Assembly (NCBI GenBank): GCA_003697085.1
Contig: RFFU01000036.1
Location: 1 to 15,439 of the forward strand
Source: Candidatus Hydrogenedentota bacterium
GTDB lineage: Bacteria > UBA8481 > J006
Reading direction: 5' to 3'
Length of the DNA stretch: 15,439 nucleotides
The first letter of the stretch is position 1. Every line of letters begins with the position of its first letter. This document shows positions 1-13,273 of this stretch, piece by piece. The notes under the pieces were generated by a model, which saw only the letters and a program-made list of their open reading frames with translations, was not told where the DNA came from and made no database searches. A program made the translations under genes and the position numbers.

Positions 1-93
1 GAAGAGATGCGCTCCGGCCAACAAAAGAATCACGAAAGTCGTCCCCTCGAGAAACCGTCTCGACGTGCTCTTTTCCACGCTCACCTTCCTCAT
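1..93 (-). CDS. N-terminus of an unidentified membrane protein (runs off left edge)
   Basis: Reading leftwards from the ATG at 93-91, 31 codons stay open to the window edge. The product starts MRKVSVEKSTSRRF, a basic, Ser/Thr-rich leader, followed by a hydrophobic stretch (FVILLLAGAHLF) that looks like the first half of a membrane segment or an uncleaved signal anchor. The ATG shares an ATGA overlap with the TGA of the upstream membrane/MBL fusion gene (90-92). That is a classic sign of translational coupling and supports both this start and co-transcription. No strong Shine-Dalgarno is visible (GAGGCGG lies just upstream), which fits initiation by coupling. Family cannot be judged from 31 residues. 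Confidence 0.6.
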   Translation of the reverse strand, partial: MRKVSVEKSTSRRFLEGTTFVILLLAGAHLF

Positions 94-3000
94 CGATCCG
101 CCTCGATCCGGTAAATCGACGGCTTCTCCGCCGGGAAATAACGAGCGACCTTTCGCCCGTGTCCGGGAATCACAAACCAAAGTCCGGCCGCGTTCGCAAG
201 CATTCTCTCACGAATCCGTGTATTCGCGGCGGAATCGGCGGCGGTTCCCACGACGAGATTCCGAAAGAGGTTGTCGTAAACCATCACCTCGTCACCCGCA
301 AGCCAGACTTTTCCGACATCGGCCTCGACGGCGACAACCTGCGAACCCGGCGTATGACCGCCGGCGGGAATGAGCGAGACGCCGGAGGCGATCTCGGTTT
401 CCCCATCGACGAGGCGCAGGCGCCCCTCCCCGGCGATCTCTTCCAGAACCTCCAGCGTCTTCCGATCGACACCGTGAACGCGCTCCCGCTCGTTTTCGGC
501 AAATCCCGCGCGCGCCCATTCGTATTCCTTCCTCTGGAGCCAGACGCGCGCTTCCGAAAACCGTCCCACCGCGCCCGCGTGGTCCCAATGAAGATGCGTC
601 AAAACGAGGTCCGTCACCGCATCCCGCGGGACACCGATCTCCCTCAACAACGTCTCGACCCGCCGGAAATGCCGGATCCGCCACCGCCGCGCGTCCTTTC
701 GACGGAGAAATCCGCAATCAACGAGAATCGTCCGATCCGTGCCGCGAATCAACCATGCATACCATCCCGCGCGTTCTCTTCCCCTCTCCGCTCCGGCATA
801 GAGGTTCTTCCGAGCCATCCTCGATTCTCCGTACTTCAGGGCAAGAACACGCCAGGCATTCCCGCCGGCCGGGCCGGAGCGTGGAGTGGTCGCGGAGGGA
901 AGGAGAACGCTGAGGAGAAGGAGCGCGGGAAGGCCGAACCCCAGTCCCACCCCCGCGCGGCGCATCGAAGCGGTTCCGCGGGAATCGAGAAAGAAGAGCA
1001 GAGCCACGAGAAGATAGAACCCGGCCGCCGCCGAGGCCATCGTCCTGAATCCGAGCATCACCGAAAGGTTCAAGGCCAAGGGCACCGCCAGAGCAGACGT
1101 AACTCCGTTGATCGCAAAGAGAATCGGAGTGTGACGCTCGTGCTCCCTCGCCTGCGCCGCGTGGAGAACGGCGGCGAAGGGTATCCCCATCAGGAAAGAA
1201 AGCGGGGCGAGAGCCGCGAGATTCACGGCGCTCCGGATTCCCGACGGCGAAGAGGAGAAGAATTCGAACACCGCGCCCGCGTAAGCAGGGAATCCGACGG
1301 CCAAAAGGAAGATCGCGGGAGGAACGAGGATCAAGATCGCGGGAGAGATGTGAGAAGCCAGCCGACTGCCCAACGAGGAAAACACAAGCATTCCGCCGAG
1401 AACGACAGCCAGCGAGACCGTTGGAGAGCCGAGAAAGCGTTCGCAGATCTGGAAGAGCGCGATCTCGATCAGAAGATAGGCCAGTCCGGTCAGAAGAGCA
1501 ATCGCCGAGAGAAGTCCCGCGGAAAAGTGTGTCTCCCTCGAAGAATTCCGCAGGCAAAGAGCAATCCCGACGGCGATCAGAAGAACGGCCGGAATCGCGA
1601 CGGGGAGGAGCGCCTCGCGGAGTTCCTTCCGGCTCGGATCGACGAAAAACGGAAACGGACGGTCGTCGGTCGCGGGAACGAGGTTGTAGCGCGCTCGGGT
1701 CGCCTCGCTCAAGCGTCCCTCGATGACTCGGGCGATCGTATTGTCCAGATTCGCTCCGGGAAAATAGAGCGGCGTGCAGACGGCCGTGTGGATCGGTCCC
1801 AGAGTCCCGCCCGCCGCTTTCTCCCGCTCCTTGATCCGATTCACGTCATCCAGCCATTTCCGAAACCGTGCGATCTCCGGTTCGGTCAAGGAACTCTTCT
1901 TCACGAGAATCTGGTAATACCGGTTCTTCCGCGTCGTCCACGAGAAGGCCAAAAGATGCCGTTCGGGCTCGGACACGCCGAGACGGACGAGCGCCTCCCG
2001 CAACGTCAAAAGCATCTTCCAGACGGGGGCTTCGCGGGAAGGACGGTTGACGGGCTCCTCGATCGAGAGAAATCCGCGATCCGTGAGATGTTCGAGAAGC
2101 GCCTTCCCCGCCTCGACCGTATGAAGATATTCCGGTGACGGAGACAATCCAGAGTATTTCCCGCGGGCGAAGTGCGTGTTGAGAAGCGTGATGAAGTCAT
2201 ACCGCTTTTCGGAGCGATCGAGAAATGTCCGACCGTCGATCATTTCCGTCTGAATATCGCCGAAGACGTGAAGGATCTTCCGGCCGAGTTTTCCGTTGAG
2301 AACACGCAAGACGGCCTCGTTGATCTCGACCCCCTCGACCTCGCCGCCGAGATTCACCGCTGTCTTCGTTACGCCTTCGCCGGAAAGTCCGATGATCAGA
2401 ACTGAAGGAGAATCGATTAGATTGTAGGGAAGTCGAGGATCGATGCGGTAGGCTTCTTTGCCCAGAATCCGCAACGTGTCGATCGTCCGACCGTTCTCCT
2501 TGAACTTGAAATAGATGCTTCCCCGTTCCCTCCAGACGACATCGATACGCCCCGCCAGGCTCGATGCCGAGGCGACGAGCGCTCCATTCGGGTAATCCTT
2601 AGCGTAGAGCGGACGCGTCACGGAAAGAAGACGGGTCCGTTGCTGCAATCCCAAGAGGAAAAGAAAGAGAAAGGAAAGCCAGAGATAAGCGCGCCGGAAA
2701 CGTTTTTCGTCTTCTCCAGCACCGTGCGCCGCCTCACCCGAGGAAGAGGCAGCCGCCATCCGAGTGAAGAGAAGGGGGAAAAAAGCAGCCAGAGACGCCA
2801 GAAAGAGGAAGGCCCCCTCTTCCTGCATGATGCGCACGATCGGATCAGCCAGCGCCGCACCCAGAGCCGCGCCGGCCAAGTCCGCGGCGTAGATGCGGGG
2901 ACCGTAAAACCGCCGGAGAAACGTCGTCGTGATGAAACCACAGAGGAGGAAGGGAGGAAGAAGAAAGAGAGCCGCGAGGTACGGATATTTTCCGGCTGCC

Positions 3001-4088
3001 GAGGCGGCACCCAGCGCGGCGGGCAAGAAGAACGGAAGAAGAAGGAACGCGGCACTCAGAAATTGCTCGCTTTCTCCTCCTGCCGGTGCCTTCGGAGGAA
3101 AGGCCGCCGCAAACGCACCGACACTGATTCCGAAGAGCGCGATCGCCACGGCGGAAGTCGCCGTAACGTAATCCGCCGAGACCATCAGGACTTGGAAGAG
3201 GACAAGCTCGAGATCGATGGCAAGGAACGCCGTCAGACCCGTGAGGAGAAGGATCCGCCTGGGAGGCTTCTCAACCGGTCGACACGATTCGAGCAATGAA
3301 GTCCCTTTCCCCGACGACGACTTCTCCGACTCCCGCGTTTCTTGCTCGGCGCCTTCCCGGGATCCGTTTTGAAGAAGTATCTCCGGAACCGCGACGCATC
3401 TCGAAAGACGAAGGGAAAAATCGACGAGATGGATCGCGGCGAAGAGGAGAATCTCCCCTTTTATGAGTGCGGGAAGGAGGTGGGTGTTTGCGATCCACGG
3501 CGGATAAAGATGGGTTATAAGCACAAGGAGAAGGAGTAAGAAAAGGGAGTTGTTTTCGTGTTTCGAAAAGCGATCCGGCAGGGCGGCGATGGCGCGCGAT
3601 GCGAGGCGATGGAGAATCCAAAGGGCTGCGGCGGAGAAGAGCAGAAGGTGATAGGGGCCGCGCAAGAGACCGATCGCGTCGAGCCGATGCCAGGAATCGA
3701 AGAGTGTCGTCGGAAAGAAACCGAGGCGGACCGACCAGCGGGAGAACTCCGAGAAGGAGAGAAGGAAGCACGCGGCGGCGGCAAGAGCGCATTCCGAGCG
3801 AAAACCGAGAACGTTCCGTACGGAAGAAGAGGAACCAGGGGGCGAATTCGAAGAATCGCCAGGGGAACACGCGTCATTGCCAGCGCGGTTCCGCGCGGCA
3901 AGAAAGAGGAGCCCGGCGGCGGCGAAGAGTGCGGAAATGACCCAGGATCCGAGGCTGAGCTGCCGGCCGAAATTGAAGTAGGAATGCCGTCCCTGTCCCC
4001 AACGATACTCGGGAAAGAGAAGATGCATCCCCCCCAGAAGAAAAGGTGTCATTCTTACAATTTGACACTTTCGGAACGAGCGCGTCAT
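90..4088 (-). CDS. Polytopic membrane protein with spermidine-synthase-like SAM domain fused to a C-terminal metallo-beta-lactamase domain
   Basis: Up to 1,332 residues. About five membrane segments lie in residues 45-230 and several more in 278-485. A Rossmann-like SAM-binding domain covers about 500-735 (VLIIGLSGEG at 563-572; acidic VEIN at 587-590 for ribose contact). More membrane segments run 827-1065. A full metallo-beta-lactamase domain follows from about 1076 to the end, with all expected metal ligands: HLHWDH 1165-1170, His1245 in AGGHTPGS, Asp1266, His1310 in PGHG. The MBL part most resembles lactonase/glyoxalase-II-like hydrolases. The SAM part has LLNTH (635-639) where true spermidine synthases carry catalytic acidic residues after the YD-hydrophobic strand, so polyamine synthesis is doubtful. 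The start is uncertain: ATG 4088, ATG 4052 and ATG 4028 are all possible and none has a good ribosome site. The reading frame is uninterrupted for 4 kb, unlike the two upstream genes. Substrate unknown. Confidence 0.85.
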   Translation of the reverse strand: MTRSFRKCQIVRMTPFLLGGMHLLFPEYRWGQGRHSYFNFGRQLSLGSWVISALFAAAGLLFLAARNRAGNDACSPGDSSNSPPGSSSSVRNVLGFRSECALAAAACFLLSFSEFSRWSVRLGFFPTTLFDSWHRLDAIGLLRGPYHLLLFSAAALWILHRLASRAIAALPDRFSKHENNSLFLLLLLVLITHLYPPWIANTHLLPALIKGEILLFAAIHLVDFSLRLSRCVAVPEILLQNGSREGAEQETRESEKSSSGKGTSLLESCRPVEKPPRRILLLTGLTAFLAIDLELVLFQVLMVSADYVTATSAVAIALFGISVGAFAAAFPPKAPAGGESEQFLSAAFLLLPFFLPAALGAASAAGKYPYLAALFLLPPFLLCGFITTTFLRRFYGPRIYAADLAGAALGAALADPIVRIMQEEGAFLFLASLAAFFPLLFTRMAAASSSGEAAHGAGEDEKRFRRAYLWLSFLFLFLLGLQQRTRLLSVTRPLYAKDYPNGALVASASSLAGRIDVVWRERGSIYFKFKENGRTIDTLRILGKEAYRIDPRLPYNLIDSPSVLIIGLSGEGVTKTAVNLGGEVEGVEINEAVLRVLNGKLGRKILHVFGDIQTEMIDGRTFLDRSEKRYDFITLLNTHFARGKYSGLSPSPEYLHTVEAGKALLEHLTDRGFLSIEEPVNRPSREAPVWKMLLTLREALVRLGVSEPERHLLAFSWTTRKNRYYQILVKKSSLTEPEIARFRKWLDDVNRIKEREKAAGGTLGPIHTAVCTPLYFPGANLDNTIARVIEGRLSEATRARYNLVPATDDRPFPFFVDPSRKELREALLPVAIPAVLLIAVGIALCLRNSSRETHFSAGLLSAIALLTGLAYLLIEIALFQICERFLGSPTVSLAVVLGGMLVFSSLGSRLASHISPAILILVPPAIFLLAVGFPAYAGAVFEFFSSSPSGIRSAVNLAALAPLSFLMGIPFAAVLHAAQAREHERHTPILFAINGVTSALAVPLALNLSVMLGFRTMASAAAGFYLLVALLFFLDSRGTASMRRAGVGLGFGLPALLLLSVLLPSATTPRSGPAGGNAWRVLALKYGESRMARKNLYAGAERGRERAGWYAWLIRGTDRTILVDCGFLRRKDARRWRIRHFRRVETLLREIGVPRDAVTDLVLTHLHWDHAGAVGRFSEARVWLQRKEYEWARAGFAENERERVHGVDRKTLEVLEEIAGEGRLRLVDGETEIASGVSLIPAGGHTPGSQVVAVEADVGKVWLAGDEVMVYDNLFRNLVVGTAADSAANTRIRERMLANAAGLWFVIPGHGRKVARYFPAEKPSIYRIEADR
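4046..4068. promoter_or_regulatory. Operator-like inverted repeat GTGTCA-N11-TGACAC at the start of the membrane/MBL gene
   Basis: Half-sites GTGTCA (4046-4051) and TGACAC (4063-4068) form a perfect 6+6 dyad with an 11-nt spacer. Flanking A's at 4043-4044 pair with T's at 4070-4071, giving AAgGTGTCA-N11-TGACACtTT. One possible start codon of the downstream gene (ATG 4052-4050) lies partly in the left half-site. The 9-mer TTTGACACT recurs at 4295-4303, and ATGACAC occurs near 4151. The geometry suits a dimeric repressor, but that is inference; the repeat could be chance in a short spacer. Confidence 0.3.
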
Positions 4089-4422: not shown

Positions 4423-5199
4423 TCAGAAAAGATGGAGGAAATCGTGGACGAAGATCATTGGCGCCGGGAGTCCATTGATATTGACCACGGCGACGGAGAG
4501 GATCTCAAGGTTCTTTCCGGCGCCTTCCTTCAAAGAATGGTACTCCGTCTCAAGGATTTTCATTTGACGCGCGGCATGTTCCCGGGCCATTACGAGTAGG
4601 CGAACGTTCTCGGGGATCTTGGCGATTCGTTCACGATCCGGTTTTTTCCACTGTTCCTCGACATCCTCGAGAAACTCGTTGCCTTCCTTTCCTTCGAGCA
4701 CGGCGTTCAGTGCTCCGCAACAATCTGACTCACGAGTATAGCGCATCAACACGCCGAATCGCGATTCGGCCGAGGGGTCCTCGAAGGAGTTCCACTCGGG
4801 AAGGTACATGCGGTCCGTTACCCGGAGGGGGAGAATGACACCACAGTGCGACTGGATCCAGACGATCAGCAATAACGGCCTTCCGCGGTCGAAGTGATCG
4901 ACGGCCAGGTCAAGTATCCCGGCGGGAAAGACAGCGCCAGGCGTGGAGACGATCATCGGAGAGCGTTTCCCATCCGGAAGAGGGCGAAGAGACCGCGCGA
5001 TTTCCAGTACTCGGTCAAGCAAGCGGGCTCGACGAAAGAGATTCACAGTTTCCCTGGGATTTCGTTTCATCCGTTCCGGGGCGTCCTTCAGCTGCTCTTC
5101 GAGAAAGGCAAGGTCTTCCTTGTCGGGAAGGGAATCGGGATCAAACGCTGCGGCGGCCAATTCCGTCGCCTTCTTGATCCTGTTCCAGAATTCAGCCAT
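4423..5199 (-). CDS. Unrecognised 258-residue protein, last gene of the flotillin/ATPase operon
   Basis: I do not recognise the family. The start at ATG 5199 is chosen over an upstream in-frame start at 5232 because GGAGGTGA sits five bases before it. The product begins MAEFWNRIKKATELAAAAFD. It has no signal peptide or membrane segment and looks like a soluble mixed alpha/beta protein: a helical, charged first 85 residues, a hydrophobic core around residues 95-130 (PLLLIVWIQSHCGVILPL), a Cys pair in SDCCGAL near 170, and a terminal strand-rich part ending VHDFLHLF. It overlaps the ATPase 3' end by 8 nt (stop of that gene at 5192-5194), so it is probably translated by coupling and works with the ATPase, perhaps as an adaptor. 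It is undamaged, unlike its two upstream neighbours, and ends at TGA. Confidence 0.8.
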   Translation of the reverse strand: MAEFWNRIKKATELAAAAFDPDSLPDKEDLAFLEEQLKDAPERMKRNPRETVNLFRRARLLDRVLEIARSLRPLPDGKRSPMIVSTPGAVFPAGILDLAVDHFDRGRPLLLIVWIQSHCGVILPLRVTDRMYLPEWNSFEDPSAESRFGVLMRYTRESDCCGALNAVLEGKEGNEFLEDVEEQWKKPDRERIAKIPENVRLLVMAREHAARQMKILETEYHSLKEGAGKNLEILSVAVVNINGLPAPMIFVHDFLHLF

Positions 5200-8101
5200 C
5201 GGAATCACCTCCTCCAGGATCAAGAGTGACACGGAGTACGGAATACGCCGCGAACCGTTCGTGCGGATTCACGATCGTAAACGGCAGTTCCTCGATCACG
5301 GTTTCCTTCAACCCGCGATTCGTAATCACGCCCCACGTGATCCTCAAAAGCGCCTCGTTGGACGAGAGAACGCGGAATTCCACCTCCTCCGCCTCATGCT
5401 CCACCCCTTGCGCCTGTTTGTCCTCCAGCACGGTGCGATTATCGACCTTCTGACCGTCATACATGATGACCGGATGGTCCTCGTCGTGAATGTAAATGTA
5501 GGCGCCTTTCTGAAACCCGTATCCTCGAATCCGATACTCGCGCGGTTCAAACTCTCTCGTCTGTCCGAGAGGAATAAGGAGACGATCCTCATATTCTCCG
5601 ACGAATTCCGGCATCCCATCCGCGTCTTCATCGCGGGGCAAATCGGGCGGCTTCGTTACGGCCGCTTCGAAGCCACCAGGCCGCTTTTCTTCCGTTCTTT
5701 TCCCACTCGTGGAATCCGCCGTGCCAACCGAGGCTGGGGGAGGGATCACGACGACGGCCGGCTTAATCTGCACCGAGGAGAAGGCCTTTTTGAGGCGTTC
5801 GAGCGTTTCCTCCGGCAATGTCATCTCGACACGGGAGTCCGCGCCTTCTCTGCTCCGCTCCTCCTCCCGGGCCCTTCGTTCTTCCTCGAGCCTCCGCGCC
5901 CGCGTCTCCAACTCCTCGCGCCTCTTCCTCTCCTCCTTCTCCCTCCGGCTTCGTTCTTCCCTCTCCCAGTCCGCGCGCCGATCGAACCATTCCTTAAGGC
6001 TCTCCAAACCCCCGCCGATCGTTTCTCCGATCGCGTCGAGCCCTTCTTTGAAAGAGGCCAGATGAACCGCGACCCGGCCGACGGGATCACTCTCGTCCGT
6101 TTTGGCAAAGAGAAGATTCCGCCAAAAGGTCTTTTTGATCTCTTCCCATCGTTCCTTCTCCGTCTCAGTCAATGTCCCGCAGAGTTCCTTGAACTTCAAA
6201 AGATTCGCCTCGGCTCCGGTTGTCAAGGTCTGAGCCTCATTTCGGTAATGTTCGTCCAGCAGCGCTCGAATCTCCTCCTCGTTCATCACCGGAAGGACGC
6301 GTTCCGCCAGGCGGTTCATATTCCTGTACGATCCCTGGAGTTTGAACGGAGGCTCGGTTCGATACTCGTCAGCCTGGGCGGCGGAGGCAATGTATTCCTG
6401 ATTGACCCGAAGGACGATATCGCGAATCCGCAAGAGGCGCTTCATCACCTCGACCATCTCATTGAGTTCCTCGGGCGCGTACTGGCCTTCGAAGGCGCTG
6501 GAATCGACCGCCCCTCCTTCGGCCATGCGGATAATCGCGATCACATCCCCGCGGCTTCGCTGCGCCAAGCGGGAAAGGATCGGATTCGAGGTGACGGCGT
6601 TCTCGAGGTAGCTCCGGCGAAAGGCCTCCGCATTGGCACTGACGATGTCGCCGAGGTTGTAGGTATCAGCGCGGTTCGCCAGCATATCCGGAATCACGAA
6701 CTTTTTGCCGCTTTCGGTGTACGGATTGCCGGCCATGACGACCATAACCTTCCGGCCGCGCAAGTCGTAGGTTCGGGTCTTCCCTTGAAAGACTCCTTCG
6801 ATCCGCCGTTGAGCGTCGCAAAGGGATATGAACTTCTGGAGAAATTCGGAATTCGTGTGCTGAATATCATCGACGTAAAGCATTACATTGTCGCCCATTT
6901 CGAGCGCGAGGTTGGCCTTTTCGATCTCTTCCCGCGCCGCCGCATTCAGCGCCTCGGCGGGATCGAGCGAAGTTACGGCGTGGCCGAGCGCCGGTCCGTT
7001 GATCTTCATAAAGGTCATCCCCAACCTGTTCGCCACATACTCCATCAACGTCGTCTTCCCATACCCCGGTGGGGAAATCAGCAGAAGCAATCCCAGCCGA
7101 TCGGTCCGTTTTGCGTCCCCCGCTGCGCCGATCTGCTTCGCCATATTGGCCCCGATCAAAGGCAAATAATGTTCGTCGATCAACTGGTTCCGTACGAATG
7201 TCGTCAGAACCCGCGGTTTGAATTCGTCGAGGCGGAGTTCCTCGCGCTTCCGAGCGAGGCATTCCTTCTTTCTGGCAAGGTATTCTCGAAACGCCGGAAC
7301 AGCCTCTCGTTCGAATCGTTCCAGTTTCTCCATAAAGGAAAGATAGTCGAGACGATACGTTCCCTGCCGGATCACGGGATGGGAACCGACCATTCCCTTC
7401 ACGAGTGCCGTGAAGGAGACCGTTCCCTCATCCGTTCCATCACCGAAACCCGGATCTCTTTTTCCCGCATCCTCGTAAAGAAGCATCACGCCGGCCTCGT
7501 CGAGAAAACGGTAATCCAGTGGAACGATTCTCTCTTGTCCCCCAGACACTTCCTCCCTCCCCTCTTTCCTCGCGGTCGGATCATGTTCTGCGGCGACGGG
7601 ATATTCGTTCTCGATCCCGGAGCCGCCTTCACGGCGTCTTTCGGAGGCGAAAAGCGCCAGCCAGTCGCGAATCACGTCCCATTCGGCACGCCGATCGCCC
7701 GCCACGGCTTCGCGAGCCGCGGCGAAGGCCTCCTCCGCACCGCGCTCCCGAAGGTCCTCGTAAAAGATTCGCACGATCTCTTTCGCCGGTCGGCTCGACA
7801 GAAATCTCTCCCCGCTCGAAAGCACCTCAAAGAGGTACTCCGCCGTCTTCTCCGCATCGGCGGGATCGAACCATCCTCCGTTCTCCGCGAAATTCTTGAT
7901 CCGCTTCCACAGTTCCCGGATATAACGCTCCTTTCGTGGTTCAACAGCGAAGGTTCGCTCGGCCCTTCCCGCACTCGTAATTCTGGCCTCCAGCGACGGT
8001 TTCGCTTCCGAATCCTGCCATTCGTTCCAGAAAATCCGGGCCGCAGCGCGGACACGCGGAGCAAACCTGAAGAGACCAATCGTCCGATGAATCCGTGCCA
8101 A
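5192..8101 (-). CDS. AAA+ ATPase module with beta-rich C-terminal tail (third fragment of the giant ATPase)
   Basis: 969 codons counted from TTG 8101, but the frame is open back to the TAG at 8159-8161 and the extra codons (KEGYVKGVHD) look native, so 8101 is not a credible independent start; no ribosome site precedes it. Numbering from 8101: helical region 1-300; Walker A PPGYGKT 344-350; Walker B VMLYVDDIQ 406-414; sensor-1-like VMAGNP 455-460; Arg-bearing ANRADTYNLGD 475-485; sensor-2-like YRNMNRLAERV 592-602. A highly charged Glu/Arg coiled coil spans about 705-755 and a Pro-rich linker about 780-825. The end (about 835-955) is a beta-rich domain I do not recognise. The ATPase core is complete, so purifying selection was acting until recently. 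The product is soluble and cytoplasmic. It ends at TGA, overlapping the next gene. Confidence 0.8.
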   Translation of the reverse strand: MARIHRTIGLFRFAPRVRAAARIFWNEWQDSEAKPSLEARITSAGRAERTFAVEPRKERYIRELWKRIKNFAENGGWFDPADAEKTAEYLFEVLSSGERFLSSRPAKEIVRIFYEDLRERGAEEAFAAAREAVAGDRRAEWDVIRDWLALFASERRREGGSGIENEYPVAAEHDPTARKEGREEVSGGQERIVPLDYRFLDEAGVMLLYEDAGKRDPGFGDGTDEGTVSFTALVKGMVGSHPVIRQGTYRLDYLSFMEKLERFEREAVPAFREYLARKKECLARKREELRLDEFKPRVLTTFVRNQLIDEHYLPLIGANMAKQIGAAGDAKRTDRLGLLLLISPPGYGKTTLMEYVANRLGMTFMKINGPALGHAVTSLDPAEALNAAAREEIEKANLALEMGDNVMLYVDDIQHTNSEFLQKFISLCDAQRRIEGVFQGKTRTYDLRGRKVMVVMAGNPYTESGKKFVIPDMLANRADTYNLGDIVSANAEAFRRSYLENAVTSNPILSRLAQRSRGDVIAIIRMAEGGAVDSSAFEGQYAPEELNEMVEVMKRLLRIRDIVLRVNQEYIASAAQADEYRTEPPFKLQGSYRNMNRLAERVLPVMNEEEIRALLDEHYRNEAQTLTTGAEANLLKFKELCGTLTETEKERWEEIKKTFWRNLLFAKTDESDPVGRVAVHLASFKEGLDAIGETIGGGLESLKEWFDRRADWEREERSRREKEERKRREELETRARRLEEERRAREEERSREGADSRVEMTLPEETLERLKKAFSSVQIKPAVVVIPPPASVGTADSTSGKRTEEKRPGGFEAAVTKPPDLPRDEDADGMPEFVGEYEDRLLIPLGQTREFEPREYRIRGYGFQKGAYIYIHDEDHPVIMYDGQKVDNRTVLEDKQAQGVEHEAEEVEFRVLSSNEALLRITWGVITNRGLKETVIEELPFTIVNPHERFAAYSVLRVTLDPGGGDSDG

Positions 8102-8158
8102 GGGTTCAAGGATCGCGGCCGCATCGAGATCGTGGACGCCTTTGACGTATCCCTCCTT

Positions 8159-9634
8159 CTACCGCGGCGTGGCGAAAGCCCGCATCCAGTCCAAACGCTC
8201 CTCCGGCGTCTTCTCGAGGAACTCCGCCACACCTCCCTCCCCTTCCTCGAGCGCCTTCAAGGCGCAAGCGGCGAGATATTCCGCACGATAGATTTCCTCG
8301 TTCTCCGAAAGCACTTCCTGCTTCCAGACCGGCCGCGTCGCGAGGAATTCCGGATCGCTCACCTTTTCGAAATACCGTATTCCCGTGAGGTGGTAATACA
8401 TCTCTCCGTCACGCTCAACCATCGTGCAATCGAGGGGCTGGGTGTTGACAGAGAAACGATATTTTCCGAAGCGAATGATCTTTTCGCCATCCTCGTAAAG
8501 TTCCCGCGCATCGCGGAGTTGGCGCACCGTTTCTTGCTGGAGCGTCTTGAGACGACCGAGGAGATCGTCAGCTTTAACGGAATCACCGAGCGCCTGGAGT
8601 TGTTCCACGAGGTCGCGGACCTTAGCGACCATCCTATCCGATGCGTACCAGGCGTTGAGGTCCTCGAGCGTCCTGAAGGCGGAGGCGCGCGACCGGATGC
8701 CATTGAGAACCCGTTCGGCGGCGGCGTAGAGCGCCTGCGCCCGCCTGTTCCGTTCCTCGACGAGCCGAACCTTACGAGAGGTGAAAGCGGAGGAAATCTC
8801 CTCGCGCTTCTCGACCATCGTTCCGATGAACTCGTCAAAGTCGGCGAACCTCCCCTCCATCTCCTCCAACTGAAGCATAACCTTCGTGAGATTCTCGTCG
8901 CATTTTTCAGGGGTATCGCTGAGGTCGAGGTAATTGGCAACGGATTGGTTGAGGAGTTTCACCTGCGCATTAAAATGGGCGGTGCCCTCCACGCGCGACA
9001 GATCCTTCCGCCGGTTCTTCAAGAGGGCCTTGACCTGGTTGAGGCGCGCGTAGATCGCGGAGATGTCATCGATAATCCGCGTCGCCTCCGTGGCATCCTC
9101 GATCTCGAGATTCCCGACGATCTCGATCAGCATCTCCAACTGAGCCGCGGTCTCCGTAATCCGTTTCTCCAGAGCGTCCGCCTCCGTCACCTTCCCCACT
9201 GCCTCGAGCTCCTTCTTCGCCTCTTCCACACGAGTCGCATACGGATCGAGCGCGCCGTCGGAAAGAAGAAAGGCGACGCATTTTCGGGAAAGATTGTCGG
9301 TCTCTTCGCGGACGCGTTCCTCCAGAGTATCGAGCAGGGCGAGATCGACGTAGCGTAGTTCGCGCGCCGAGATAATCGCCCCCCGGCAGCCGCGCAAGGC
9401 CGCCAAGCGTTCAACAAACACGTCTATCGCCTCGAACGATCCCCGCCGCGCCTCCTCCAACACCTCCTCCGTCCGCCGCTCGATCTCCGCCACGCGATCC
9501 GCCGTCTCCTTCCGAATTCGTCGCACCTTCTCAAACTCCTCGATCGCCGCGCGGGCTGTGTCTCGAATCGCTTCCAACGGCTCTCGAACCCGGAAGGCTC
9601 CGTCCTCCCCCAGCCAAAAGTAGGCGTCAATCAC
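8159..9634 (-). CDS. Coiled-coil middle fragment of the giant ATPase
   Basis: 491 codons from GTG 9634 to TAG 8159-8161. The start is forced: an in-frame TGA lies a few codons upstream, GTG is the only usable initiator, and it has no Shine-Dalgarno. Residues 20-65, 100-175 and 245-385 are rich in Glu/Arg/Lys/Leu with heptad-like spacing, i.e. long coiled coils. Residues about 386-460 form a small beta-containing part (IIRFGKYRFSVNTQPLDC) and the end is helical (LDWMRAFATPR). The first residues, IDAYFWLGEDGAF, read like the continuation of the preceding fragment, and the last, FATPR, continue into KEGYVKGVHD after the TAG. I read this as the central arm of one polypeptide, not a free protein. 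Confidence 0.7.
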   Translation of the reverse strand: MIDAYFWLGEDGAFRVREPLEAIRDTARAAIEEFEKVRRIRKETADRVAEIERRTEEVLEEARRGSFEAIDVFVERLAALRGCRGAIISARELRYVDLALLDTLEERVREETDNLSRKCVAFLLSDGALDPYATRVEEAKKELEAVGKVTEADALEKRITETAAQLEMLIEIVGNLEIEDATEATRIIDDISAIYARLNQVKALLKNRRKDLSRVEGTAHFNAQVKLLNQSVANYLDLSDTPEKCDENLTKVMLQLEEMEGRFADFDEFIGTMVEKREEISSAFTSRKVRLVEERNRRAQALYAAAERVLNGIRSRASAFRTLEDLNAWYASDRMVAKVRDLVEQLQALGDSVKADDLLGRLKTLQQETVRQLRDARELYEDGEKIIRFGKYRFSVNTQPLDCTMVERDGEMYYHLTGIRYFEKVSDPEFLATRPVWKQEVLSENEEIYRAEYLAACALKALEEGEGGVAEFLEKTPEERLDWMRAFATPR

Positions 9635-9660
9635 ACCGGTGGGAGACGCACGAGATCAAA

Positions 9661-10965
9661 TTAGAGGTTGGCGTAGGTGTCCTCTTTTTCGATCAGGTTC
9701 AGAACATCGTGACAATCGGCCAAACATCCGACCACAGCCGGATTGCTGATCTTGTAGAGGTAGGAATCCGTCTTTTCCTCCAGCACAACGTTCGGACCGA
9801 CGTACGGAGTCCGCCAGACCTGGAGCAGGTGATGTTTCCGCGGCTCATTTTCGCCCTTGAAGAGAACCATCTCCCCAGTATCAAAAAGCGTGAAACCGTT
9901 GCACACGATGGGCGTCTCCAGCCTCTGTTCGACTCGGTTGTACGAAAGAAGGACATAGACCCCCGAGGCGCGATTGTAGAAGACGCAGAGGAAATCCTCG
10001 CCGTTCCGCGCCTCGATCCGGCGAGAATACACCATCCCCGACAGCTCATCCTCGAATACCTTGTGCTCGCCTGTCTGGAGATAGTATCTGTTGTGAAAGA
10101 TGATCCCCCGCCCGTCCGGCAAGAGAACACAGGACTCGCCGATTTGATCGATCCGCTGGACCTCCTGGAGTTTCTCGTTGAAAACGAGGTACCGAAACTC
10201 CTTCTCTTGAAAAGGACGAATCTTCATCAGGATGAGATGCCCGAGGATGGCGTAGTAGATTTCGGCGTCGTCGAGCGTCTGATCGGGATCCAAAACGGGT
10301 TCGGAATAGATTCCTTCGCCGGTCTCCGTATTGTCTTCCACCTTGACCGTCAGGTCTCCTCCGACCGTTTCGACGAAGACACGATCTTCAATCGAGATGT
10401 GCGGATGGGTGCCGTAACGGTGAAAATCGCGAATCACGCGCTTCCATTCAAACTCGTGCGGCGGGGGGAAGTGATACTCGTGATCAAAGCGGTTGCCGAG
10501 ATAGCGAATTCCTTCCTCCGTCACCGCCCACTTGAAGCACTTGAGGTCATCGATGTCCCTTCCCACTTGAAAAGCCATATAGAGAAAATCGTCCATCCGA
10601 CGAAAATCCGAAAAGACCGTCTCTCGATAATACTTATAGAGTTCGGCGAAATCGCGTCCAAATTCCGGATCACAAATCGGATCCAGGTCCCGCGGCACGA
10701 ATTTCCGATCCGCGAATTCGTACACGGCGAAGACATCTTCCAATTTCACCTCCCGCTTCAGGCCCATTCTCACGTTATAACCGAAGAGAAAACGGTCCCC
10801 TCCAAGAAGCACCATATCGCGTGGACTACAGTTGTACTTGGTGGTAATGCGTTCGGTCGAGACGAGGGCGAATTCGATCGAGCCGAAGACGCGCTTGCGC
10901 TCCGCATTGAGCCGTTCGACGCGGCGGCGCAATTCCGCCCCGTGTTCGAGAAGCCGTTTCCGCAA
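9661..10965 (-). CDS. DUF3686-like N-terminal fragment of the giant ATPase
   Basis: 434 codons if begun at TTG 10965. The same frame is open back to a TAG at 11116-11118 and encodes EGIEAGTYEI directly before LRKRLLEHGAEL, so the real N-terminus lies further upstream (see the ATG at 11209). A helical start (residues 1-25) is followed by a mostly beta-strand domain with repeated aromatic/charged blades (ERITTKYNCSPRDMVLLGGD, FLFGYNVRMGLK, GIIFHNRYYLQTGEHKVFED, MVLFKGENEPRKHHLL), plausibly a propeller-like fold. This matches what I remember as DUF3686, the N-terminal region of the DNA repair ATPase family. No enzymatic motif is apparent; a substrate- or DNA-binding role would be inference. It ends YANL then TAA at a place where the family would be expected to continue. 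Confidence 0.7.
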   Translation of the reverse strand: MRKRLLEHGAELRRRVERLNAERKRVFGSIEFALVSTERITTKYNCSPRDMVLLGGDRFLFGYNVRMGLKREVKLEDVFAVYEFADRKFVPRDLDPICDPEFGRDFAELYKYYRETVFSDFRRMDDFLYMAFQVGRDIDDLKCFKWAVTEEGIRYLGNRFDHEYHFPPPHEFEWKRVIRDFHRYGTHPHISIEDRVFVETVGGDLTVKVEDNTETGEGIYSEPVLDPDQTLDDAEIYYAILGHLILMKIRPFQEKEFRYLVFNEKLQEVQRIDQIGESCVLLPDGRGIIFHNRYYLQTGEHKVFEDELSGMVYSRRIEARNGEDFLCVFYNRASGVYVLLSYNRVEQRLETPIVCNGFTLFDTGEMVLFKGENEPRKHHLLQVWRTPYVGPNVVLEEKTDSYLYKISNPAVVGCLADCHDVLNLIEKEDTYANL

Positions 10966-11088
10966 AATTTCGTATGTTCCCGCCTCGATCCCCTCGGGAG
11001 TTGCGGGCCCTGGTCCCGCTTCCGACCCCGCCCCCTCCTCGCCGGCGTCGCGCTGAACGGGAAGCCTCGTGGAAACGCTTGACGCAGG

Positions 11089-11096
11089 CCCCCCCC
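11089..11096. repeat. C8/G8 homopolymer at the 5' end of the ATPase gene
   Basis: Eight C's on the plus strand (eight G's in the gene). Removing one G would fuse the ATG-led leader to the downstream fragment. Such tracts are hot spots both for slipped-strand phase variation and for base-calling length errors. Confidence 0.85.
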
Positions 11097-11209
11097 GAAC
11101 CAGGGCTCTCTCCGGCTAACCCGTCTCCCGCCCCGGCCGGGCCGGTCTTGGAAGTCGAGGTATTTCCGGCGGGTTCGGACCGGTCCGCCATCTCTTTCTC
11201 TTCAGCCAT
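11089..11209 (-). pseudogene. Out-of-frame N-terminal leader of the giant ATPase, ending at a G8 slip site
   Basis: ATG 11209 lies 45 nt after the flotillin stop. It opens MAEEKEMADRSEPAGNTSTS followed by a Gly/Ala/Pro/Ser-rich linker, then reaches eight G's (C8 at 11089-11096 on the plus strand). Staying in frame gives Arg-rich nonsense (ACVKRFHEASRSARRR). With seven G's the frame becomes GGPASSVSTRL and joins the DUF3686-like fragment through EEGAGSEAGPGP and EGIEAGTYEIL. The disordered leader is poorly conserved territory, so the assignment rests on this clean in-frame join and on the lack of ATG or GTG in the downstream frame before 10965. Confidence 0.6.
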
Positions 11210-11254
11210 CTTCCGGGCGCGTTTCCGGAACGGAGATTCCCGCGAGCGTTCCGG

Positions 11255-12388
11255 CTAGGCCTCGGCCCCCCCAAGGAACTCGCCGACGATCTCGGAACCG
11301 ATCCCGGCCTTCTCGGCGTGCTCCGCAAGCGTCTTCAAACCGGCTCGAACGTCGTCCGAATCAGCCAAGGCCGTCAGTTTCGCCAAAGCAGCGGCGACGC
11401 TGAGGTTCTTGAGGTCGGCCGTGGAAAGGCCGAACTGATCGCACCACTTCCGGATCTGGCGGCGAAAGTATCCGGGGTCGGAGCGGAAGAAGGTTCCCTT
11501 GATGTCTCCCAGGACGCGGCTGCTTCCAACAGTGCGGTCCACCGCCTTGCCCGCCGTGATGGCGTTGACGATCTTGTCGAAGAAGGCCGTCTCGCCGCCG
11601 ACGATATCGACCTTGGCGTTCTTGAGCGCTTCGGCCACGACGGCCGCCTGCGCTTCGGCGATGTCCTTCCGGATCTGGATTTCGGCCAAGGCGATTTCCT
11701 TCTCGATGTTCGCGCGGATCTTGAACTCCTCGTGTTCGCGGCCTGATTCATTGAAGAGTTTCATCGCTTCGGCCTTCTTCGTGATCCCGTCCGCGTCCGC
11801 CTCGAACTTCAAGCGCATCACCGTGGCTTCGGCCGTTCCCTGTTTTTCGGTCGCAACAGCTTTGGCCTCGAGAACTTGCGCCTCGGCCAGTCCCGGCGCG
11901 GCGGTCTCGGCCGTGATCCCCTCCGCCAGGGCCTTTTTTTCGGCAGCAAGCTTCACGTTCGCGTTCTGCTCTCCTTCCGCTTCGATGACCTTCTTCTGCG
12001 CGATAAGTTCGGCGGCGCGGCGCTGCGCTTCCGCGGCCTTGACCTGTTTCACCAACTCCTGTTCCGCATCCGCCTTCGCAAGCGTAATCGCGACCTTCTT
12101 CTCACGTTCCGCCGTCGCGAACTCCTCCGTATCCTTCACCCTCTGCTCCTCCGCCACGACCTCCTTCTGCACCGCCACTCTCTGGCGTATCACTTCCTGA
12201 ATGTTCTTTTTCTCGATCTCGACAGCCTTCTGCTTCTCAATGTCATTCAGGGTCACGACCTTCTCGCGCTCAATATCCTCCAGCTGGCGTTCCTTCTGAA
12301 CGCGAACCTGCTCGACCGCGTCCGTCCGCTCTTTGTTCCGCTGCGCCACAATGATCTGGTGGAGTTTGTTCTGCTCGGCCACCTGCAC
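11255..12388 (-). CDS. Flotillin C-terminal fragment (coiled coil and oligomerisation region)
   Basis: 377 codons from GTG 12388 to TAG. GTG is merely the first possible initiator after the TAA at 12440-12442; the 17 codons between (starting QEERLKAEKSR) are clearly native coiled coil. The N-terminal two thirds is Ala/Glu/Lys/Gln-rich (NKLHQIIVAQRNKER, VVAEEQRVKDTEEF, AEREKKVAITLAKADAEQEL), typical flotillin repeat helices. The end contains EAMKLFNESGREHEEFKIR, a segment I recall as conserved in this flotillin subfamily, then VDIVGGETAFFDKIVNAI, GKAVDRTVGSS and a final helical part ending GEFLGGAEA. Alone it lacks the membrane anchor and SPFH domain, so it would not act as a normal flotillin. 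Confidence 0.75.
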   Translation of the reverse strand: MQVAEQNKLHQIIVAQRNKERTDAVEQVRVQKERQLEDIEREKVVTLNDIEKQKAVEIEKKNIQEVIRQRVAVQKEVVAEEQRVKDTEEFATAEREKKVAITLAKADAEQELVKQVKAAEAQRRAAELIAQKKVIEAEGEQNANVKLAAEKKALAEGITAETAAPGLAEAQVLEAKAVATEKQGTAEATVMRLKFEADADGITKKAEAMKLFNESGREHEEFKIRANIEKEIALAEIQIRKDIAEAQAAVVAEALKNAKVDIVGGETAFFDKIVNAITAGKAVDRTVGSSRVLGDIKGTFFRSDPGYFRRQIRKWCDQFGLSTADLKNLSVAAALAKLTALADSDDVRAGLKTLAEHAEKAGIGSEIVGEFLGGAEA

Positions 12389-12439
12389 CTCTTCCTCCGT
12401 CGCGATGCGTGACTTTTCCGCCTTCAGGCGTTCCTCCTG

Positions 12440-13057
12440 TTAAATCCGAATTGTTTCCGCTTCCTCGCGCGCCTTGATCGCCGCCACCTCGCGCTTCTGT
12501 TTCTCCTCCGCTTCCGCCAACTGGCGATTTTGCTCCAAGATCATCTCACGCGTCTCGACATTCTTTTTGTTGATGTCGCGTTCTTTGTTCCGCTGGAATT
12601 CGTTCGTCAACACGGCCTGCGCCGCCGTCCGCTCGGTTATCAACTTGATCCCTTCCGCATCGAGAACATTTTCGGGATCGAGGTCCTCGATCTTGGTCTG
12701 TTCGAGAAGGTCGATCGCGGCATCGTCGAGGATATAGCCATTGAGGTCGGTTCCGACGGCCTTGAGGATCGCTTCACGAAAGGCCTTCCGCTTGTTCAGA
12801 AGATCCTCGAAGTTAAACTCACGCCCCGCCGTCTTCAGTGCATCCGAAAACTTCGGCTCGAAGAGTTCCGAAAGAACCTGGGGATCCGAGGCACGCTGGC
12901 ATCCGATCGTCTGCGCCACATGCTTGATCATCTCTTGATCCTCGCTCTCCACCCGGACGTAAAAGGTGACCTGAATGTCCGCTCGAAGGCTATCGCGACA
13001 GATCAACCCCGTCGGCCCGTGACGGTGAATCACGACTTCCTTGACGGAGATATCCAT
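12440..13057 (-). CDS. Flotillin SPFH-domain fragment
   Basis: 205 codons from ATG 13057 to TAA 12440-12442. Starts MDISVKEVVIHRHGPTGLIC and continues with RADIQVTFYVRV, FEPKFSDALKTAGREF, GTDLNGYILDDAAIDLLEQT and LDAEGIKLITERT, all typical of YqiK-like SPFH domains. The frame is open a further 36 codons upstream to the first TAA and encodes GQALVRTGLGGIKVATAGG, the expected preceding strand, so ATG 13057 is an internal Met rather than the true start. The GGAGG before it lies only two bases away and falls in the codons for Leu-Glu-Val. The segment ends in coiled coil at AREEAETIRI, and the same frame resumes with QEERLKAEKSR after the TAA. Confidence 0.75.
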   Translation of the reverse strand: MDISVKEVVIHRHGPTGLICRDSLRADIQVTFYVRVESEDQEMIKHVAQTIGCQRASDPQVLSELFEPKFSDALKTAGREFNFEDLLNKRKAFREAILKAVGTDLNGYILDDAAIDLLEQTKIEDLDPENVLDAEGIKLITERTAAQAVLTNEFQRNKERDINKKNVETREMILEQNRQLAEAEEKQKREVAAIKAREEAETIRI

Positions 13058-13165
13058 TACCTCCAGGCGATGGACGATCGGAAGTACAAAAATGCCGCCG
13101 GCCGTGGCAACCTTGATCCCGCCCAGCCCCGTGCGTACCAGGGCCTGTCCCTGACGGGGGATTCG

Positions 13166-13273
13166 TTAAGTCCACCCGACGATAAGACGAATGATTCCAT
13201 AGAGGACGGTAAAAAGAACAAGCCCTCCAAAGAGATACCCGACAATCGACAATACGGATAGAAATGCACCCAT
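13166..13273 (-). pseudogene. Flotillin N-terminal membrane anchor segment, cut by TAA
   Basis: 35 codons, MGAFLSVLSIVGYLFGG..., forming one hydrophobic helix (about residues 4-32) and ending RLIVGWT before TAA. GGGAGGGG seven bases upstream of the ATG makes this the best-supported start in the operon. After the TAA the same frame gives RIPRQGQALVRTGLGG, aligning with the post-membrane region of E. coli YqiK as I remember it (LYRRASAEQAFVRTGLGG); the Tyr there falls exactly on the TAA. If translation really stops here, the product is only a short membrane peptide. Confidence 0.65.

Follow-up and report, generated by a model that had tools for sequence, protein, structure and literature searches.

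A polytopic spermidine-synthase-like membrane protein fused to a metallo-beta-lactamase-fold domain in bacteria of at least three phyla

Polytopic spermidine-synthase-like (SpeE-like) proteins and secreted, lactonase-like proteins of the metallo-beta-lactamase (MBL) fold are both very common, and the functions of both families are vague. The locus described here raises the question of whether members of the two have been joined into one protein and, if so, what such a protein may do. The window, i.e., the whole stretch of DNA analysed (15,439 nucleotides of a Candidatus Hydrogenedentota genome), contains on its reverse strand, at positions 90..4088, a single uninterrupted frame of 1332 amino acids with an ATG start, a TGA stop (90-92) and, in ORF analysis, no internal stop codon. 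Full-length homologues of 1233-1278 aa (L069, L070 and L071) are 34-36% identical to this protein from end to end. An earlier note, made from the sequence alone, had described a polytopic protein and an MBL on one chain, which holds true, although an N-terminal membrane module of approximately 245 residues was not separated there; the junction that it placed at 1065-1076, figures that are residue numbers, is indeed open in frame.

All features of the locus lie on the reverse strand. The N-terminal membrane module (residues 1-245, positions 3354..4088) has approximately six transmembrane (TM) helices and a conserved PEY-WGQGR-SYF motif, and is homologous to the N-terminus of the protein encoded by the downstream gene. 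It is followed by a polytopic spermidine-synthase-like core, which consists of a first block of seven TM helices (residues 279-483, 2640..3254), a soluble domain of the spermidine-synthase/methyltransferase fold (residues 484-825, 1614..2639) and a second block of seven TM helices (residues 826-1034, 987..1613). Unfused polytopic relatives, which are 747-861 aa long, cover approximately residues 277 to 1035 of the window protein and stop at the latter point. Relative to this usual 7TM–domain–7TM core, the window protein is extended at both ends, by residues 1-245 at the N-terminus and by residues 1042-1332 at the C-terminus. The latter begin with a junction segment (M1042-S1066, 891..965) containing a signal-peptide-like helix (1047-1066), a Met being present at or near the same site in all four fused proteins, and end with the MBL-fold domain (residues 1077-1332, 93..860), which has seven metal ligands. 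Lactamase_B (PF00753) is the sole Pfam match of the protein, the rest of which, towards the N-terminus, has none.

A frame of this kind might result from an assembly or sequencing error that united two adjacent genes, and several features could be read in this way: the contig ends only 90 bases from the fused gene, an internal Met with a signal-peptide-like start falls exactly at the junction, and a nearby flotillin gene contains two in-frame TAA codons. However, the same stop-free junction is present in three independent full-length homologues from metagenome-assembled genomes (MAGs) of other phyla (one of Nitrospinota and two of Planctomycetota), which bears out the claim of the earlier note that the fusion is real. 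In addition, comparison of the two Scalindua copies gave dN/dS (omega) values of 0.21 for the N-terminal module, 0.14 for TM7-13, 0.14 for the SpeE-like domain, 0.18 for TM14-20, 0.25 for the junction and 0.20 for the MBL, i.e., every segment of the fused protein, the junction included, is under purifying selection. A frameshift or lost base near nucleotide 863, which the same note had named as a possible flaw, is ruled out by the homologues and by the selection on the junction codons, as is an artefactual loss of a stop codon. The alternate frames are open from codon 1010 onwards, their first stops lying at codons 1084 and 1123, and correcting for a single lost base would thus not give the upstream protein a normal end. 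In none of the four fused genes is the internal Met preceded by a ribosome-binding-site-like sequence, and a separate internal start of the MBL was rejected for this reason. An artefact is thus extremely improbable, and the gene is a genuine fusion whose single frame is conserved across at least three phyla.

The flotillin/YqiK-type gene (window 11255-13189, reverse strand) is in frame over its length apart from the two TAA codons. Its Streptomyces homologue has Thr at one of these sites and a gap at the other, and TAA terminates other genes in the window genome; the gene is probably broken or affected by a consensus error. It belongs to a conserved SPFH/flotillin–DUF3686–DUF7902–AAA ATPase cluster upstream of the fused gene (window 4423-13057, reverse strand), and in a Streptomyces plasmid homologue flotillin likewise adjoins a 'DNA repair ATPase'.

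The fused gene has a sporadic distribution. When 386 genomes spread over the domain were searched with the N-terminal part, one strong homologue was found (G205, the Nitrospinaceae MAG OFTM379), 39% identical and in a 1236-codon frame, whose protein carries the MBL and matches the window protein end to end; two of the 386 genomes, the window's own included, have fused copies. Searched against GTDB genome contigs, the window protein alone gave no match, while the profile of a two-row alignment recovered OFTM379 along with Ca. Scalindua sp. OFTM1, Ca. Scalindua rubra BSI-1 and a contig of Acidobacteria M0029. The first three carry the full-length fusion. The acidobacterial copy has the N-terminal half and is cut by the contig end inside the core, and is probably the same fusion. 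Fused copies occur in 1 of 24 genomes of the phylum of OFTM379 and in 2 of 75 genomes of the class of Scalindua, and the contig-end-cut copy is the only one among 347 genomes of the sampled phylum of the acidobacterial match; the gene is absent from the only other sampled genome of the window's order. A second fragment in Scalindua OFTM1 (L098 1-218, G408:C27), located at a contig start, matches the C-terminal 72 residues of the fusion and may be a second copy or a remnant.

Phylogenetic analysis of the core groups the four fused proteins with the cut acidobacterial copy in one clade (100/99), the sister of which is an unfused, MBL-less protein of 861 aa (100/100). The core of the fused proteins has one origin, and the MBL tree is compatible with one or more joinings of the MBL. 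This single origin, together with the sporadic presence in several phyla, suggests horizontal spread of the fused gene.

What the soluble domain of the core may catalyse was examined through its relatives and its active-site residues. Spermine_synth (PF01564) is matched by 10 of 12 aligned family members, the window protein itself being below threshold, and the PDB matches to a profile of the domain include spermidine synthases (E 7e-11). A literal polyamine synthase with an accessory hydrolase would agree with this shared fold and with a weak match of L070 to NF002956, the family of polytopic polyamine aminopropyltransferases (27 bits vs. a cut-off of 472; the window protein has no match). 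On the other hand, both active-site aspartates of the synthases are replaced in all fused members, the one after the 'YDxII' strand by Leu or Met (L636 in the window protein) and the second by His (His639), a position at which most relatives have Asp, and Gly (G570) stands in place of the acidic residue of GxG(D/E)G in all of them. A polyamine synthase is therefore very unlikely, and the earlier designation 'spermidine-synthase-like' is valid for the fold but not for the enzyme. The domain has a nucleotide-binding loop (GLSGEGVTKT) and retains an acidic residue, E588, at the end of the second strand; judged by its residues, the pattern is more in keeping with a SAM-type transferase than with an aminopropyltransferase.

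The MBL domain is complete, as had been claimed: Lactamase_B matches residues 1111-1278 (E 3.7e-22, 79.7 bits vs. a cut-off of 22.7), and the four full-length fused proteins all have the seven metal ligands without variation, namely HxHxDH (H1165, H1167, D1169 and H1170), H1245, D1266 and H1310. The best sequence matches are AHL lactonases (AiiA and AidB) and methyl parathion hydrolase, and the fold matches of a structure model, which is of good quality in most parts of the domain (mean pLDDT 71, helix included), are likewise AHL lactonases (PDB 8x78) and methyl parathion hydrolase. A true beta-lactamase (subclass B3) was rejected (19.8 bits vs. an NCBIfam cut-off of 240). The domain appears to be an AHL-lactonase-like dinuclear metallo-hydrolase. 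Its closest stand-alone relatives are acidobacterial proteins (L094-L097; 31-37% identity, E 1e-40 to 1e-44) that start with signal-peptide-like sequences and are predicted to be secreted; the junction helix looks like a former signal peptide kept as a membrane helix.

These similarities, along with the predicted location of the MBL outside the membrane, could also point to membrane-tethered quorum quenching, in which the MBL would hydrolyse AHLs from the outside and the polytopic core would be an anchor or transporter. However, the MBL scores far below every NCBIfam cut-off for AHL-lactonase equivalogs (AiiA/AidB/AttM; 54 vs. 375, 50 vs. 360 and 46 vs. 390 bits), and the residue three positions after the bridging Asp is Met1269 in the window protein but Tyr in L069, L070 and L071, a Tyr which we take to be equivalent to AiiA Tyr194. 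Since a selected SpeE-like core and a partner gene would also be left unexplained, quorum quenching seems unlikely.

On which side of the membrane the MBL lies, a point raised in the earlier note, was addressed with a simple hydropathy/charge model of our own, whose emission tables are approximate and on which both the helix count and the topology rest. The model predicts 21 helices, an N-terminus inside and both soluble domains outside. In this orientation, the loops of the fused proteins contain 26.8 K+R inside vs. 17.0 outside, and those of unfused polytopic relatives 15.6 vs. 7.9, with inside exceeding outside in 28 of 28 relatives; thus, the charge bias predicts an MBL outside the membrane. 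An AlphaFold model of 1200 residues with five sequences (pLDDT 43) was too weak to test the topology. We infer that both soluble domains probably face the outside of the cytoplasmic membrane. The same bias suggests that the spermidine-synthase-like domain is also outside in the unfused relatives (L010, L011, L025 and others; 28/28 sampled).

It is also conceivable that both domains, or the SpeE-like one, are cytoplasmic, and that we are dealing with a conventional SAM-dependent methyltransferase of the membrane to which a hydrolase of a detoxifying or lactonase type has been attached. SAM is cytoplasmic, and the hydrophobicity of helix 399-418 is weak; should this helix not span the membrane, the SpeE-like domain would come to lie inside. 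Yet the charge bias for the outside in 28/28 relatives and all four fused proteins speaks against this arrangement, and the secreted ancestry of the MBL favours an outside placement of that domain. We regard the cytoplasmic arrangement as possible but rather doubtful.

Additional clues come from the downstream partner gene, which starts (MRKVSVEKSTSRRFLEGTTFVILLLAGAHLF...) at the very end of the fused gene (1..93, reverse strand), with which it shares an ATGA overlap. It is cut by the contig end and resumes on contig C114 of the same genome, which extends it via an exact 36-base overlap. The gene after the fusion is conserved in Nitrospinaceae, both Scalindua genomes and the window, i.e., wherever the DNA is readable, with a GTGA overlap in Nitrospinaceae, an overlap or a gap of at most approximately 20 bases in OFTM1, according to which start is assumed, and approximately 50 bases in S. 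rubra. The membrane module of its product and the N-terminus of the fusion are homologous (hhalign probability 96%, E 1.6e-9); the partner model also matches the S. rubra fused protein (E 1e-4), and a strong partner module (E < 1e-100) was found in only 2 of 386 genomes, the two with the fused gene. In the homologues, the module is followed by a C-terminal GH127-like (alpha/alpha)6 part (25.9 bits vs. a cut-off of 24.9 for GH127 in L070), whereas the joined window partner (approximately 293 aa) consists of the membrane module only, without the GH127-like domain. A 450-aa protein of the window genome (L076 7624-8976, on contig C141) is related to this GH127-like C-terminus and is encoded apart from a membrane module. 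Following the window partner on C114 are genes for a FemAB-type acyltransferase (TIGR03019, 238 vs. a cut-off of 260 bits), a GT2 glycosyltransferase and a DUF2304 protein, a context seen in the window genome only. The XrtA/PEP-CTERM glycan system, to which the FemAB neighbour had drawn attention, was rejected as the window genome has no match to exosortase (PF09721).

Taken together, the fused protein would comprise approximately 21 helices and four units: a membrane module shared with the partner, a 7TM–methyltransferase-fold–7TM core, a former signal-peptide helix and a metallo-hydrolase. With both catalytic domains facing the outside of the cytoplasmic membrane, the SpeE-fold domain might modify an exported or lipid-linked substrate by transfer of a small group, which is most likely methyl, the metallo-hydrolase might open or remove an ester, lactone or similar bond of the same substrate, and the partner would contribute a glycan-acting domain of the (alpha/alpha)6 type. 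We consider the modification of cell-surface glycans or glycolipids to be the most likely function; the GH127-like C-terminus of the partner and the FemAB, GT2 and DUF2304 genes behind it in the window genome count for a role in glycans. We therefore favour, though tentatively and with somewhat less than even confidence, a two-enzyme machine bound to the membrane, by which an exported glycan or lipid-linked substrate is modified. Against this surface-modification reading, the three glycan-related neighbours are limited to the window genome, where the partner is without the GH127-like domain and exosortase (PF09721) is not matched, and, as S-adenosylmethionine is not known to occur in the periplasm, a methyltransferase fold on the outside would have to be reached by its donor along some route, use a different donor or be inactive. 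A bolder version is that of an undescribed, horizontally spread two-gene surface-modification system in which methyltransferase- and lactonase-fold domains, held outside by one 21-helix protein, act in sequence on an exported substrate; it is speculative and, in our opinion, could well be wrong. If true, it would mean that the outer face of the cytoplasmic membrane is supplied with a SAM-like donor in a so far unrecognised way.

The fusion and the operon linkage suggest a shared substrate and hence tie the polytopic spermidine-synthase-like and the secreted lactonase-like MBL families to one pathway, whose carriers include anammox and Nitrospina-type bacteria. If the topology holds, an outside SpeE-like domain matters for the annotation of the whole polytopic family, and the role of a SAM-type transferase fold at the outer face of the membrane becomes a testable question for all of its members.

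In the open-access journal literature, we found no published description of a SpeE-like protein and an MBL on one chain, in agreement with the earlier impression that the architecture is unfamiliar. Each domain is known, and the combination and the two-gene unit appear to be new as far as the literature was checked. Polytopic spermidine-synthase-like proteins (NF002956/PRK03612-like, PF01564) share the 7TM–SpeE-fold–7TM core and the conserved motifs (approximately 25-30% identity to unfused members), but the unfused members have neither the MBL nor the N-terminal module and end at approximately residue 1035, and many keep Asp where the fused proteins have His639. The secreted acidobacterial MBLs (31-37% identity) have a signal-peptide-like N-terminus at the position of the junction helix, but are stand-alone proteins of 282-297 aa, with no SpeE-like gene adjoining in the stretches read. 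AHL-lactonase-type MBLs (AiiA, AidB and PDB 8x78) provide the best sequence and structure matches and have the same fold and seven metal ligands, whereas the window MBL is joined to a membrane protein of approximately 20 helices, is below all family cut-offs and has Met instead of Tyr at the third position after the bridging Asp. The fungal 7TM histidine methyltransferase NHMT, the 7TM part of which was reported to be fungus-specific, is an ER-resident protein with an SpdS-like domain that methylates secreted proteins and enzymes, and a SAM-type transferase rather than an aminopropyltransferase has been argued for it likewise (PMC10349129). Although NHMT (AN4663) has one 7TM block and no MBL, it offers a precedent for the surface-modification reading and resembles the fusion in layout, combining 7TM helices with a spermidine-synthase-fold domain that is without the synthase acidic residue and acts on the secretory side.
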